Source: a virus. Taken from it: a stretch of DNA of 64,000 nucleotides. The notes beneath the pieces are model-generated. The model worked only from the letters and a program-made list of their open reading frames with translations. It was not told the origin of the DNA and made no database searches. This document shows positions 20,523 to 48,802 of this stretch, piece by piece; positions within the stretch are counted from its first letter, which is position 1, and each line of letters begins with the position of its first letter. The position numbers were made by a program, and so were the translations under genes. The stretch is from positions 1 to 64,000 of the IMG/VR virus record IMGVR_UViG_3300013093_000029; one strand, written 5' to 3'.

Positions 20523-20676
20523 TAGTCATTTCCCTTTCTAACTCACGTTTAACCATTTTGTATGCTGTCTTATCGTATATATCCAAGTCATCCCATTCAC
20601 TATTCATTTGTGTTAGAGCTTTCCATAGATCACGATTGTAAAATTGTACCGCTGAGTACGCTTCTTCTATAGTCAT
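20512..20676 (-). CDS. Small early protein, 54 residues
   Basis: Reads MTIEEAYSAVQFYNRD and ends ELEREMTNGN, with the stop inside the start region of the 402-residue gene (ATGGCAATTAA; 11-nt overlap). The protein is acidic and helical. It is not a recognised family. Overlap with a downstream gene and placement in a tightly packed early unit (8 nt after the previous stop) support that it is real. Confidence 0.6.
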   Translation of the reverse strand: MTIEEAYSAVQFYNRDLWKALTQMNSEWDDLDIYDKTAYKMVKRELEREMTNGN

Positions 20677-20684
20677 AATTAGCA

Positions 20685-20858
20685 TTATTTTTGTAGTGTG
20701 TATTTAATTAAAATATTTTTTGCTTCTGTAACATCAGTAATAGGTTCTAACTTATCTAATGTAATTAGTTCATTATGTAGATTAATAGTACGTTGTGCTT
20801 GATATAATCTATTATATTTTCCGTCTGGATAAGACGGTTGTGTCCAAGAGTGTTTCAT
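20685..20858 (-). CDS. Small early protein, 57 residues
   Basis: Reads MKHSWTQPSYPDGKYNRLYQ and ends IKYTLQK. It starts 2 nt after the stop of the 89-residue gene and ends 8 nt before the next start. The first half is aromatic and polar, the second half helical. No family recognised. Its place in the compact early operon is the main support. Confidence 0.55.
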   Translation of the reverse strand: MKHSWTQPSYPDGKYNRLYQAQRTINLHNELITLDKLEPITDVTEAKNILIKYTLQK

Positions 20859-20860
20859 TT

Positions 20861-36895: not shown

Positions 36896-37318
36896 TTAGT
36901 TTGTAGCTACGTTAGCCATTGTAGATGTAGCTGCAATTTGAATATCATAAGCCCAACGATTGCCATTCCAGTCGACTACCCAGTGATCTTGTAATTCTTT
37001 AGCATAGAATTGTGTACCTGTGTAGTCATAACATATAACACTTGCTTGACCGGCTGCTAGATTACCAATGTCTGTGTTACGTAGATACACTGTAGTGTTA
37101 GCGTTAAAACTTGAGCTGTCGGCTACATCAAATCTGTGTTTACTACGTTGTTTGTATGCAAAACCGTGTGCATGTGTTGTGCCTGTTGAGTCTGCATATT
37201 GGAAATCGATTGTGTATACGCCTGTTACTGCGTATGGTGCACCAATTGTACCACCAATGCCACTAGCATATCCGATATCGTTTGTACTGCCTGATGTTAA
37301 TTTAATAGGACGTCCCAT
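36896..37318 (-). CDS. Virion structural protein, MGRPIK family (short)
   Basis: A 140-residue paralogue of the next gene, sharing the N-terminal MGRPIK and a C-terminal pattern (QFYAKELQDHWVVDWNGNRW versus YYVKHLCDRTATLHPINGVQ). The ribosome site AAGGAG is strong. The leader is unusually long (about 74 nt from the predicted late start) and holds two GC-containing hairpins: GCGG/CCGC (37355-37368) and CTCC/GGAG (37374-37387). Possibly a capsid decoration protein. Confidence 0.65.
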   Translation of the reverse strand: MGRPIKLTSGSTNDIGYASGIGGTIGAPYAVTGVYTIDFQYADSTGTTHAHGFAYKQRSKHRFDVADSSSFNANTTVYLRNTDIGNLAAGQASVICYDYTGTQFYAKELQDHWVVDWNGNRWAYDIQIAATSTMANVATN

Positions 37319-37397
37319 TTGTTTTTCTCCTTATGGTTGGCGTTCTAGGCCTACGCGGTGGGTGCCGCATAAACTCCCCTTACGGAGCGAACACATA

Positions 37398-46540: not shown

Positions 46541-47407
46541 ATGAGTCAAACTCCATCGTTTAATCAAGCTAACCCATTAGCTAGACACTTTAGACAACCA
46601 GTGATCTACACTAAACTACCTAGTCGCGGTCAGTTTTGGCCAGAAGGTAGTATAGACATCCCTGTTACAGGTGAAATTCCTATTCTAGCAATGAGTACTA
46701 AAGACGAAGTTATTCTACGCACACCAGATGCACTGTTAAACGGGCAAGGTGTTATTGATGTTATTCAAAGTTGCTGTCCAACTATTAAGAACGCATGGGA
46801 AACTCCTAGTATTGACGTAGACAGCATTATTATCAGTATTCGTATTGCTAGTTATGGTAATAATATGGAGTTTACCAGCACTTGCCCACACTGTAATACC
46901 CAGCATGACTATAGCGTTGATCTAGGAGTAGTTCTACAGGGCATCGAAACACCTAACTACAGTAGAGGTGTTGACGTAGATGGTCTTAAAATTAAACTAC
47001 GTCCGCAACCATACTTTAGTCTTAACAAAACTAACATCATTGCTTTTGAAGAACAGCAATTGTTACGATCACTACAGATGATTGAAGATAATTCAGACGA
47101 AGCACAGGCTAAATTTAATGCACAGCTGAATAAACTAATCGATCTTAACATTATGATCACTGCCGACAGTACAGAAAGCATTACCACAGAAGACGGACAA
47201 CTAGTAACTGATCGTAGTTTTATCAAAGAGTTCTACACAAACTGTGATAATAAAACAGTTAAAGCGGTTAAAGCTCGTTTAGATGAATATAACAAACAAG
47301 CCAACATTAAACCATTTAATGTTATCTGTAGCGAAGAAGACTGCGCTAAGCCATTTGATATTGATATTATATTCGATTTTGCAAGTTTTTTCGGAAAAGG
47401 CTCTTAA
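46541..47407 (+). CDS. gp26: Baseplate hub assembly protein (gp26/gp51 type)
   Basis: I use the ATG at 46541 (MSQTPSFNQANPLARHFRQP; 288 residues), which has a good ribosome site; an in-frame start at 46451 lies upstream of the promoter. LPSRGQFWPEGSIDIPVTGE and ILAMSTKDEVILRTPDALLN are typical of T4-like baseplate hub proteins of the gp26/gp51 type. Cysteine pairs CPHC (about 115-118) and CSEEDC (about 268-273) suggest a metal site. It probably helps assemble the baseplate hub and tape measure. Near its end is a TTTTTTC slippery heptamer leading in -1 frame into the next ORF. Confidence 0.75.
   Translation: MSQTPSFNQANPLARHFRQPVIYTKLPSRGQFWPEGSIDIPVTGEIPILAMSTKDEVILRTPDALLNGQGVIDVIQSCCPTIKNAWETPSIDVDSIIISIRIASYGNNMEFTSTCPHCNTQHDYSVDLGVVLQGIETPNYSRGVDVDGLKIKLRPQPYFSLNKTNIIAFEEQQLLRSLQMIEDNSDEAQAKFNAQLNKLIDLNIMITADSTESITTEDGQLVTDRSFIKEFYTNCDNKTVKAVKARLDEYNKQANIKPFNVICSEEDCAKPFDIDIIFDFASFFGKGS
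47386..47392 (+). promoter_or_regulatory. Candidate -1 ribosomal frameshift site
   Basis: The heptamer T TTT TTC lies in the proper frame of the gp26-type gene (AG[T TTT TTC] GGA). A -1 slip there reads CGG AAA AGG CTC TTA and stays open into the 64-codon ORF, giving a fusion of about 360 residues. Confidence 0.55.
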
Positions 47408-47622: not shown

Positions 47623-47699
47623 TAAAAGTCATTATATTACATACAAGAGTAGTTGTGTGGCATATATTCTAGACTAATCCATTTGTGTAGTATAATTCG
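47623..47699. other. Non-coding, AT-rich flank of the structured region
   Basis: This gap follows the hub ORF. It contains TATAAT (47691-47696) on the plus strand but no good -35 at 16-18 nt (TAGACT lies at 15 nt), so I do not call a promoter. No ORF is seen on either strand. Confidence 0.5.
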
Positions 47700-48168
47700 T
47701 AATATATTCCATACAAGAAAGATGTCTCTGACATCTGCGTTATCGCTATCGCTCAACGCTTTTTCTTCTAATCTAAATTACGTTAGTTATTTTGAATTAC
47801 TGTACTGCTCTTAAACGTTATCATCCAGATTTGGTCATACTTCACCTATCCGAGGCAAAGTATAAGTCGCATCATCCGAGTTGACAGTCATACTAACTAA
47901 AAGAGATTGTTAATCAATAACACGGAGGCGGTCAGCCGGTACCCCCTACTCTAGCTTCTTCTGACGGGTGCTGTATAGCCATAGTTAGCTAACTATACTA
48001 GTCACGTGAGTTGTATTGCTTTTTCTTCAGAGCTCACATCATTTGGCGTTTAGGCCTAATTGATCGTCGGTGCCATCCAGTGTGTAGTCTACTCTACACG
48101 TTCCAAGTGCGGCCATTACGCGAGCACCATCTCCTCTGGATACAGAACTTAATCTGCAATAGGGCTAA
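47700..48168 (-). ncRNA. Candidate large structured RNA
   Basis: Between the hub genes and the GIY-YIG-like gene there are about 540 nt without an ORF, while the rest of the genome is packed. The region is rich in helices. Best is 47835-47865: on the minus strand 13 pairs including three G-U wobbles enclose a 5-nt loop. A three-way junction is formed by ATCCAG/CTGGAT (48075-48080 with 48136-48141), GTGTAG/CTACAC (48082-48099) and GTGC/GCAC (48107-48127). Others: ATAGTT/AACTAT (47981-47996), GTGAG/CTCAC (48006-48037), GTCAG/CTGAC (47931-47965), TGTTA/TAACA (47908-47922). Wobble extensions favour the minus strand. It could belong to the large ornate phage RNAs (GOLLD/ROOL type), a group I intron relic or a new class; no tRNA, tmRNA or RNase P signature is seen. 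Confidence 0.5.
47720..47769 (+). terminator. Terminator after the hub genes (two hairpins)
   Basis: AGATGTC/GACATCT (47720-47736, perfect 7-bp stem, TCT loop) is followed by GCGTT (47737-47741) pairing with AACGC (47755-47759) and then TTTTTCTTCT. This fits a plus-strand terminator for the hub transcript. On the minus strand the same hairpins lack a good U run. Confidence 0.7.
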
Positions 48169-48169
48169 T

Positions 48170-48607
48170 TTACTTCTTTATTACTAGATCTTTTACTGAA
48201 TTCTTGCCAAGTTTAATTTGTATAATGCCGTTGTAGTTGTTTTCACGAAGTAATACATGTTCTGTGAATTGGTAGTAGGCCTCTAAGTAGTTTGTTTCGC
48301 CTCTACTGTTACATAAATGAATTATGTCACGAGTAAAGTTTTCTTTGCCATGTGTGTCAATATCTGCTTGTAGTCGCGGACTAGATCCCCAGTAGGTCTT
48401 CCAATCTGTTTCTACAACTTCACGACGTTTGTTTTTCTTGCCTTTTAGAGGTGGTCTCTTTTTGATAGTAGTGAAATATTTGCGGCCAACATAATCGTGA
48501 CCATTTATATTATTTGTAATTCTGTAGATAAAACCATAATAAGTGCCGATATCCTCGGATTCAAATGCTACACCGTTATAAATCCAAGGATAATCGTATG
48601 ATGCCAT
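48170..48607 (-). CDS. GIY-YIG nuclease-like protein
   Basis: A 145-residue protein with YYGFIYRITNNINGHDYVGR as the GIY-YIG motif (GFIY ... YVG), then GRKYF with the conserved Arg and NYLEAYYQF with a candidate catalytic Glu. The N-terminus (YDYPWIYNGVAFESEDIGTY) matches a small GIY-YIG-like family common in T4-like phages. It could be a homing-type or DNA-processing nuclease. It lies next to the structured RNA candidate, an arrangement also seen with self-splicing introns or mobile elements, though no interrupted gene is evident. It starts 3 nt after the small basic gene. Confidence 0.75.
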   Translation of the reverse strand: MASYDYPWIYNGVAFESEDIGTYYGFIYRITNNINGHDYVGRKYFTTIKKRPPLKGKKNKRREVVETDWKTYWGSSPRLQADIDTHGKENFTRDIIHLCNSRGETNYLEAYYQFTEHVLLRENNYNGIIQIKLGKNSVKDLVIKK

Positions 48608-48610
48608 AAG

Positions 48611-48802
48611 TTATTTAGCGGCTTTAGCTGCGTTTTTCTTCTCTTGAATTTCTGCACGACGAGCTTTGGTTAGTTTACCTAGGTCGCCCAATGCACCACG
48701 AGCACGTGTTCCTGCCGCTGCTACACCTTTTTCTTCAAATTTAGCATGTTCTGTTAAGTATGCTTCATATGCTGCTACGATTTGTTCATGATTTGTTGCC
48801 AT
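48611..48802 (-). CDS. Small basic histone-like protein
   Basis: A 63-residue protein, MATNHEQIVAAYEAYLTEHA then FEEKGVAAAGTRARGALGDL and KARRAEIQEKKNAAKAAK. The N-terminal helix is acidic and the rest basic and Ala-rich, like histone H1/Hc1-type DNA-compacting proteins that I recall in aquatic T4-like phages. It may bind phage or host DNA. Because it lies directly after two radical SAM genes, a peptide substrate role is another possibility, but its similarity to a separate phage family makes DNA binding more likely. Confidence 0.65.
   Translation of the reverse strand: MATNHEQIVAAYEAYLTEHAKFEEKGVAAAGTRARGALGDLGKLTKARRAEIQEKKNAAKAAK

Follow-up and report, generated by a model that had tools for sequence, protein, structure and literature searches.

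To our knowledge, a function has been assigned to only a minority of the large noncoding RNAs that phages encode. GOLLD and ROOL both have an entry in Rfam. A different kind of precedent is the bridge RNA of IS110 elements, in which two loops of one RNA share sequence and both read related targets. GOLLD, ROOL and OLE form homo-oligomers, and GOLLD and ROOL often lie near tRNA islands, as stated in one report (PMC12286853). Here we analysed a stretch of 64,000 nucleotides (nt) of DNA from a freshwater phage, positions 1 to 64,000 of IMG/VR record IMGVR_UViG_3300013093_000029 (the window), in which an earlier note had suspected a large structured RNA in a long gene-free gap. Comparison of related loci shows that this gap encodes what we describe as a new phage RNA family, kept where the recombination genes, on their gp47/gp46 side, meet the gene of the baseplate hub, and carrying two copies of one short word.

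Results and Discussion

The RNA family is common among the viral contigs that we searched, and its position in the gene order is retained. When contigs were fetched with the GIY-YIG protein encoded next to the RNA and the best 80 of 146 relatives were kept, the RNA was present downstream of the GIY-YIG gene in 79/80, several of them cut by the contig end; the sole exception, L059, ends 5 nt past the GIY-YIG gene match. A pattern scan with a core sequence gave at least 120 matches. The fetch with the hub protein, which is blind to the RNA, reached hub identities of 33%, and all 11 loci obtained in this way carry the RNA downstream of the hub gene on the opposite strand (weakest E 4e-13). Five of these are on contigs already in the set; of the other six, two pairs yielded identical hits, which leaves four new and distinct loci. 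The RNAs form two types, A (which includes the window) and B, with a common core and distinct 5' domains. No blastn match to the RNA was obtained among isolates at E 0.1; four matches of 34–41 bases fell in the first 86 bases of a query that included flank, and we take them as chance. The RNA was also not found in the plasmids searched, and its core pattern was not found in a genome collection of 84,980 species.

The word, of the form RGAUNAN, stands on both sides of a 13-base-pair (bp) hairpin, with a spacing of 49–58 nt between the copies in 129/129 distinct RNAs. The two 7-mers are identical to each other in 170/170 elements (129/129 distinct RNAs), although the word occurs in 10 versions. 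They covary by identity and not by pairing: at the three main variable positions the identity is 1.00, compared to 0.48–0.74 by permutation. The excess lies mainly within the 7-mer and is weaker at a few flanking positions; these are chiefly, for type A, the base five positions upstream of the word, with an identity of 0.80 where 0.26 is expected, and, for type B, the second base downstream of it, with 0.78 where 0.42 is expected. A tree built from the upstream core gives 40 inferred word changes, a number that comes from about 220 nt and that recombination may inflate, while ten versions need at least nine changes regardless. All 8 combinations of the three common two-state positions occur, as is expected of position-by-position reading such as pairing.

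The identity count covers 170 of 198 loci with an element match, those in which both copies were found by the regular expression CTC or TCT followed by [AG]GA[CT]NAN; this expression leaves the two words free to differ, yet it prescribes the triplets and restricts which versions can appear. Some of the 170 loci, moreover, are second fetches of one contig. Four of the 28 loci left out were inspected: L111 and L113 have identical 7-mers, and L104 and L187 share about 6 nt. Many of the remaining ones are cut by contig ends. The identity rule is also obeyed by the hub-fetched RNAs, which contain GGATGAT (L298), AGATAAT (L301), GGATAAT (L302) and GCATAAT (L300) twice each; three of them lack the search sequence that we had used, and one has a further word version.

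That the element exists as an RNA and is encoded on the minus strand is almost certain from the compared sequences. The type A consensus fold (35 sequences) has 70 pairs, 29 with changes on both sides, and the type B fold (52 sequences) has 65 pairs, 42 with such changes. Our hand-written core structure, evaluated on 31 diverse sequences, is paired in 91.8% of 868 cells, compared to 44.7–51.9% in slid controls; 97 cells are changed on both sides, against a shuffled mean of 24.8, and 0/500 shuffles attain either the paired percentage or the covariation score. A tree-aware covariation test, done with our own R-scape-like script and not with R-scape itself, gave 10 significant pairs for type A and 12 for type B, of which 3 and 2, respectively, are the identity pairs of the twin words. 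The core three-way junction is the most conserved part and is common to both types. The covariation in homologues that the earlier note had asked for is thus abundant, and both structures it had singled out hold up. The 13-bp hairpin has both-sided changes in both sequence sets (2/13 pairs in the 35 type A sequences, 8/13 in the 31 diverse ones), and the outer stem and two hairpins of its 5' three-way junction covary (Table 1), with two pairs of the hairpin at 48082..48099 significant in the tree-aware test. In type B, the 3' hairpin has five stem pairs with both-sided changes (columns 613-617/633-637). The note had also placed the RNA on the minus strand, and the consensus folding energies agree in 3/3 alignments (-195.3 vs -166.6, -170.1 vs -142.6 and -48.7 vs -42.3 kcal/mol for minus and other strand). 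Additionally, a G-U or U-G pair is found at two places of the core, in 28/31 and 31/31 sequences, respectively; on the plus strand these would be A-C, which favours the minus strand.

Protein coding, which if annotated would by the earlier note refute its reading, left no sign. The longest ATG open reading frame (ORF) per 430 nt on either strand stays short, with a median of 39 amino acids (aa) and a maximum of 64 in type A (56 sequences) and a median of 30 and a maximum of 89 in type B (73 sequences), and no ORF is shared. Only 278/1971 (type A) and 714/3391 (type B) internal alignment gaps are divisible by three, some flank being included. A replication origin was rejected as well: the GC-skew extremes of 7 contigs lie off the RNA, the nearest at about 7 kb (G006) and about 11 kb (G003). 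As a side observation, the RNA tolerates an extension of one core hairpin, which in L118 and L188 bears A-/T-rich insertions on its two sides (about 25 and 15 nt).

Two words that are identical in all distinct RNAs examined in spite of ten versions both seem to read one partner. We therein see a built-in clue to function; the need to match one partner makes that partner searchable. The rigid core, made of the three-way junction and the 13-bp hairpin, would hold both words close together; each could bind its own copy of a single partner, with pairing to a short RNA stretch as the probable mode. This partner might be a host RNA or an unrecognised phage RNA, whose sequence would fix both words at once, and the words would differ among phages because the partners differ. 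The RNA may then act in trans as a scaffold or sponge, with both words reading one partner, probably by base pairing. We give this reading an even chance.

One alternative needs no common partner at all. Copying at the DNA level, by gene conversion or template switching between direct repeats, could keep the words identical; recombination is frequent in phages, and the words are indeed short direct repeats 49–58 nt apart. However, copy 1 nearly always follows CUC and copy 2 UCU (exceptions are, for example, L111 and L113), so that a copied tract would need to stop at this border every time, and mixed pairs are found in 0/129 RNAs. We consider this explanation most improbable.

The main rival is an RNA-only homo-oligomer, in which the words make equivalent contacts between chains with no outside partner. 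The size, the elaborate fold and the phage origin of the RNA would fit, and the chains of ROOL contact one another through the same sequences (PMC12286853). Furthermore, in the common word versions copy 2 forms, together with its flank, the self-complementary sequence AUCURGAU. L113 and L300 lose this self-complementarity and keep identical words, and no segment of the RNA shows pairing covariation with the words, which makes the homo-oligomer unlikely in our eyes, while it deserves attention. A partner within the RNA was searched for directly: there is no Watson–Crick column and no excess of complements, with or without G-U pairs. The RNA is in fact poor in complements of its own word (178 5-mers compared to a mean of 220; 0/200 permutations lower), as if the word must stay free.

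Several results weigh against pairing with one partner in trans. The complements of the own word show no excess in the fetched loci (78 7-mers vs 79.5), and no partner was found in 11 phage contigs, which may be incomplete. A scan of the gene families across these 11 contigs gave no hit; complements occur at best in 4/10 members of one family, a very long gene, and the sense word occurs in 7/10 members of the same gene. The G, A and A of the word are constant in 129/129 RNAs, though the search expression demanded them; free pairing would not impose this. The partner may also be a protein encoded elsewhere.

Two further observations concern the RNA itself. Contrary to expectation, the window sequence alone folds unexceptionally (z -1.56 and -1.50 for the two strands; 7/100 shuffles fold equally well). 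The U run after the terminator-like hairpin is mostly short in relatives, with at least 5 T in the 8 nt past the hairpin in 13/86 type A and 6/86 type B elements according to a rough script, so that termination at 47736-47720 and the 3' end of the RNA are not established.

Extra sense copies of the word show a weak excess in the loci, with 123 7-mers compared to 109 (29/300 permutations as high) and 1301 compared to 1236 for the 5-mer RGAUN (9/300 as high). The clusters with most hits are one of nine, about 1 kb upstream, and one of six inside the RNA of related type A members, directly ahead of the core.

A protein could also explain the coupling of the words if the RNA is a protein scaffold, a phage or host protein of drifting specificity binding each word with one of its subunits. 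The nutL and nutR boxB sites of lambdoid phages, for comparison, change together. The nearly constant G, A and A positions inside a variable word and the regular spacing of the copies are in line with this idea. Among 10 flanking protein families, however, no residue follows the word fully. The highest normalised values, 0.85 and 0.83 (family 9, 34 sequences), 0.77 (family 8, 38) and 0.66 (family 1, 58), were computed without a tree and come from columns so variable that fits arise easily by chance. Because the free combination of the three word positions is, moreover, more typical of pairing, we regard the protein scaffold as rather improbable.

We next turn to cultured jumbo phages. 121Q, GAP32, CBB, BF, Kaldavass, Munch, Hallingskeid and XaC1 have the same gene order, with a gap of 660–836 nt after the hub gene and its small neighbour. 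Tiny ORFs are annotated in the gap of Kaldavass and Hallingskeid, two further genes come first in XaC1, and one gene follows in Munch. At the hub locus of other phages the gap measures 1014 nt after three further genes (Phosso), about 1.5 kb with tiny ORFs (PA5oct) or 364 nt (RaK2); Atu_ph07 has small genes in its place and the Vibrio phage a large gene. The eight gaps align mutually with 67–93% identity in the longer blastn pieces. Their consensus fold has both-sided changes in 48/115 pairs at -159.7 kcal/mol, and the other strand is about equal (47/119; -152.5 kcal/mol).

For the comparison we used the covariance model R1, which comprises the core three-way junction, the hairpin and the twin words. 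It gives 138.2 bits for the window and one hit each in 12/12 records, where those used to build it match by construction. Run with filters off on 73 kb of 11 loci, its top four hits all lie in the gap and on the expected strand (GAP32 E 0.019, XaC1 0.1, BF 0.12, CBB 0.13); none is significant singly, and the four are not independent, GAP32 and CBB being close relatives. The hits of 121Q (2.1), Kaldavass (4.2) and Munch (7.1) are at the matching place among chance hits, and the sole listed hit of Hallingskeid is elsewhere. Ordinary sequence homology to the jumbo block stays below nhmmer detection (best E 1.3), so that the covariance model alone points to it. The block resembles the window RNA in locus, strand and core layout, with a closing stem, a UAG linker, the ACAG..AACCCGC stem, a hairpin and again the closing stem, and this closing stem is compensated among the jumbo phages (UGCGA/UUCGCA, CGUGA/UUCACG, CGUAA/UUUACG). 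A terminator-like hairpin follows the core in 121Q and not in GAP32 by a tool scan, and in 7/8 phages by a looser script. The block differs in that no twin words are seen there and in that in 7/8 phages it opens with a TATAAT-like box, which lies on the other strand from the hub gene (TATACT in XaC1; the Hallingskeid segment begins after it). That the jumbo-phage block holds a remote homologue of the RNA core is likely, not proven.

This box bears on the possibility that the element is a cis-acting 3' untranslated region of the gp46–SegE operon, serving stability or termination between convergent operons, without any function in trans. In the window the RNA indeed starts directly after the SegE stop codon and has a terminator-like hairpin at its end, and promoter-like sites in the window are not above chance (3 found, 4.1 expected). 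Yet the box starts the syntenic block of the cultured phages, a point that is qualified by promoter-like sites in the cultured loci not above chance either (5 vs 3.9; 4 vs 2.6). More generally, the gene just upstream is often GIY-YIG, not always, and either flank can hold other genes while the RNA stays. A purely cis-acting region is therefore very unlikely in our judgment.

The coupling of the words by identity and the counterpart in cultured phages make this RNA worth following up. If the homology is true, an RNA from metagenomes becomes amenable to deletion, pull-down and imaging in the laboratory with an E. coli jumbo phage. Going further, one may speculate about a programmable phage RNA with two identical, re-writable 7-nt readers for one short nucleic-acid sequence of the host or of a rival phage, in which the words would behave like specificity alleles and an ancient class member would sit unannotated in cultured E. 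coli jumbo phages. As a whole we find this extended picture doubtful.

Table 1. Features of the RNA and its surroundings (window coordinates; outer stem in alignment columns).
Feature	Position	Strand	Basis
Structured noncoding RNA gene, ~450 nt, both ends approximate	47716..48166	-	conserved block (blastn, nhmmer vs related loci) and both-sided pair changes
Twin motif copy 1, GGAUGAU, preceded by CUC	47871..47877	-	sequence comparison across elements
Twin motif copy 2, GGAUGAU, preceded by UCU	47820..47826	-	sequence comparison across elements
13-bp hairpin between twin motifs	47835..47865	-	A1 columns 451-463/471-483; helix 6 of core structure
Core three-way junction	47902..47952	-	NGAG..CUCN', GGGGGU..GCCUCC with UACCGG..ACC, one further hairpin; helices 1-5 of hand-written core structure
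Hairpin upstream of core	47974..47997	-	A1 columns 248-255/264-271, both-sided changes 6/8 pairs
5' domain three-way junction (type A RNAs)	48075..48141	-	columns 62-133 of alignment A1
Outer stem of 5' junction	A1 columns 62-69/128-133	-	both-sided changes 4/6 pairs
Hairpin of 5' junction	48106..48128	-	A1 columns 77-81/96-100, both-sided changes 5/5 pairs
Hairpin of 5' junction (GUGUAGA..UACAC)	48082..48099	-	A1 columns 107-113/120-126, both-sided changes 5/6 pairs
Conserved 3' hairpin (GCGUUGAGCGAUAGCGAUAACGC), precedes terminator-like hairpin	47737..47759	-	conserved in A1 and A2
Terminator-like hairpin, 7 pairs, then UUCUU	47720..47736	-	hairpin conserved in relatives
Longest inter-ORF gap, 547 nt	47623-48169		between + gene end 47622 and - gene end 48170
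SegE-like GIY-YIG gene, adjoins RNA upstream	48170..48607	-	Pfam PF19835 E 2.8e-37
T4-type baseplate hub gene, convergent with RNA	46541..47407	+	Pfam PF12322 E 1.4e-15
63-aa protein, between radical SAM genes and SegE	48611-48802	-	match to histone H1-like family Hc1, E 8.9e-11
Freshwater-2 RNA	37316-37389	-	Rfam RF02980, 52.4 vs cut-off 49.9 bits

In our own greedy list of window ORFs of at least 60 aa, the RNA occupies the longest gap, as the earlier note had claimed; its statement that all other gaps stay below about 130 nt is only roughly right, the next-longest being 338 nt (20523-20860) and 165 nt. With the limit lowered to 45 aa, short ORFs cover much of the 547-nt gap. The 338-nt gap disappears at this limit and perhaps contains a small gene. 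On the plus-strand side, the hub gene is accompanied by the gene of a 64-aa protein. The neighbour that the note had called GIY-YIG-like proved to be SegE-like by Pfam, and a scan of the neighbouring proteins recovered the gp46-like and radical SAM genes that it had placed upstream: on the minus strand, the SegE-like gene is preceded by genes for the Hc1-like protein, two radical SAM proteins and a gp46-/gp47-like pair. Proteins related to the Hc1-like one (cluster 6) were found in 64 type A entries and in 2 of type B. Type B loci (e.g., L088, L134, L144 and L182) repeatedly contain a three-gene cassette between the RNA and the hub gene, consisting of protein clusters 7, 8 and 9 with 45–48 members each, all type B and mostly on the strand of the hub gene. 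The portal protein of the window is closest to those of jumbo T4-like phages (Atu_ph07, Phosso, PA5oct group), with 49–52% identity.

Comparison with known RNAs

The RNA class is not in Rfam 15. At the gathering thresholds the window matches only the unrelated freshwater-2 RNA, a second structured RNA of the same phage. At relaxed thresholds (E up to 5 for the window element) the window element and the type B element L134 gave only chance-level matches to small nucleolar RNAs and microRNAs, and nine relatives scanned whole gave no match. This covariance search, which the earlier note had proposed, found no GOLLD, ROOL or group I intron; of its two suggestions, a GOLLD/ROOL-type RNA or a new class, the latter stands. 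In the literature on large phage RNAs, structured RNAs of metagenomes and phages, EGFOA, and jumbo phages and their transcriptomes, the RNA is undescribed as far as titles and the first part of abstracts tell; with subscription papers mostly outside the coverage, this is weak evidence of absence. A group I intron was rejected also on its position, the RNA lying between complete convergent genes, and a transfer-messenger RNA was rejected with 0 genes from ARAGORN and no Rfam match.

The EGFOA RNA (Rfam RF02955) shows one point of contact, a weak match in the syntenic gap of Sinorhizobium phage Phosso, which at 29.0 bits (E 0.0046) is below the family cut-off of 37.7. EGFOA may therefore be distantly related to the RNA and share its locus. 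No EGFOA match was found in the window element, L134 and 21 whole records with stricter filters, which missed the Phosso match too. The Phosso gap itself (L280 5724-6737) is noted as a possible link of EGFOA RNAs to the hub locus.

Like GOLLD and ROOL, the RNA described here is large, ornate, phage-borne and of unknown function. Unlike them, it gives no match to their covariance models, in the window or in the nine relatives, and no tRNA was found in the window, in contrast to their usual setting. The bridge RNA of IS110 elements differs in that no recombinase is present among the ten neighbouring proteins scanned here. Its two loops share sequence, whereas the two words of the phage RNA are fully identical, and it is these twin words, together with the fixed locus, that set the phage RNA apart from GOLLD and ROOL.
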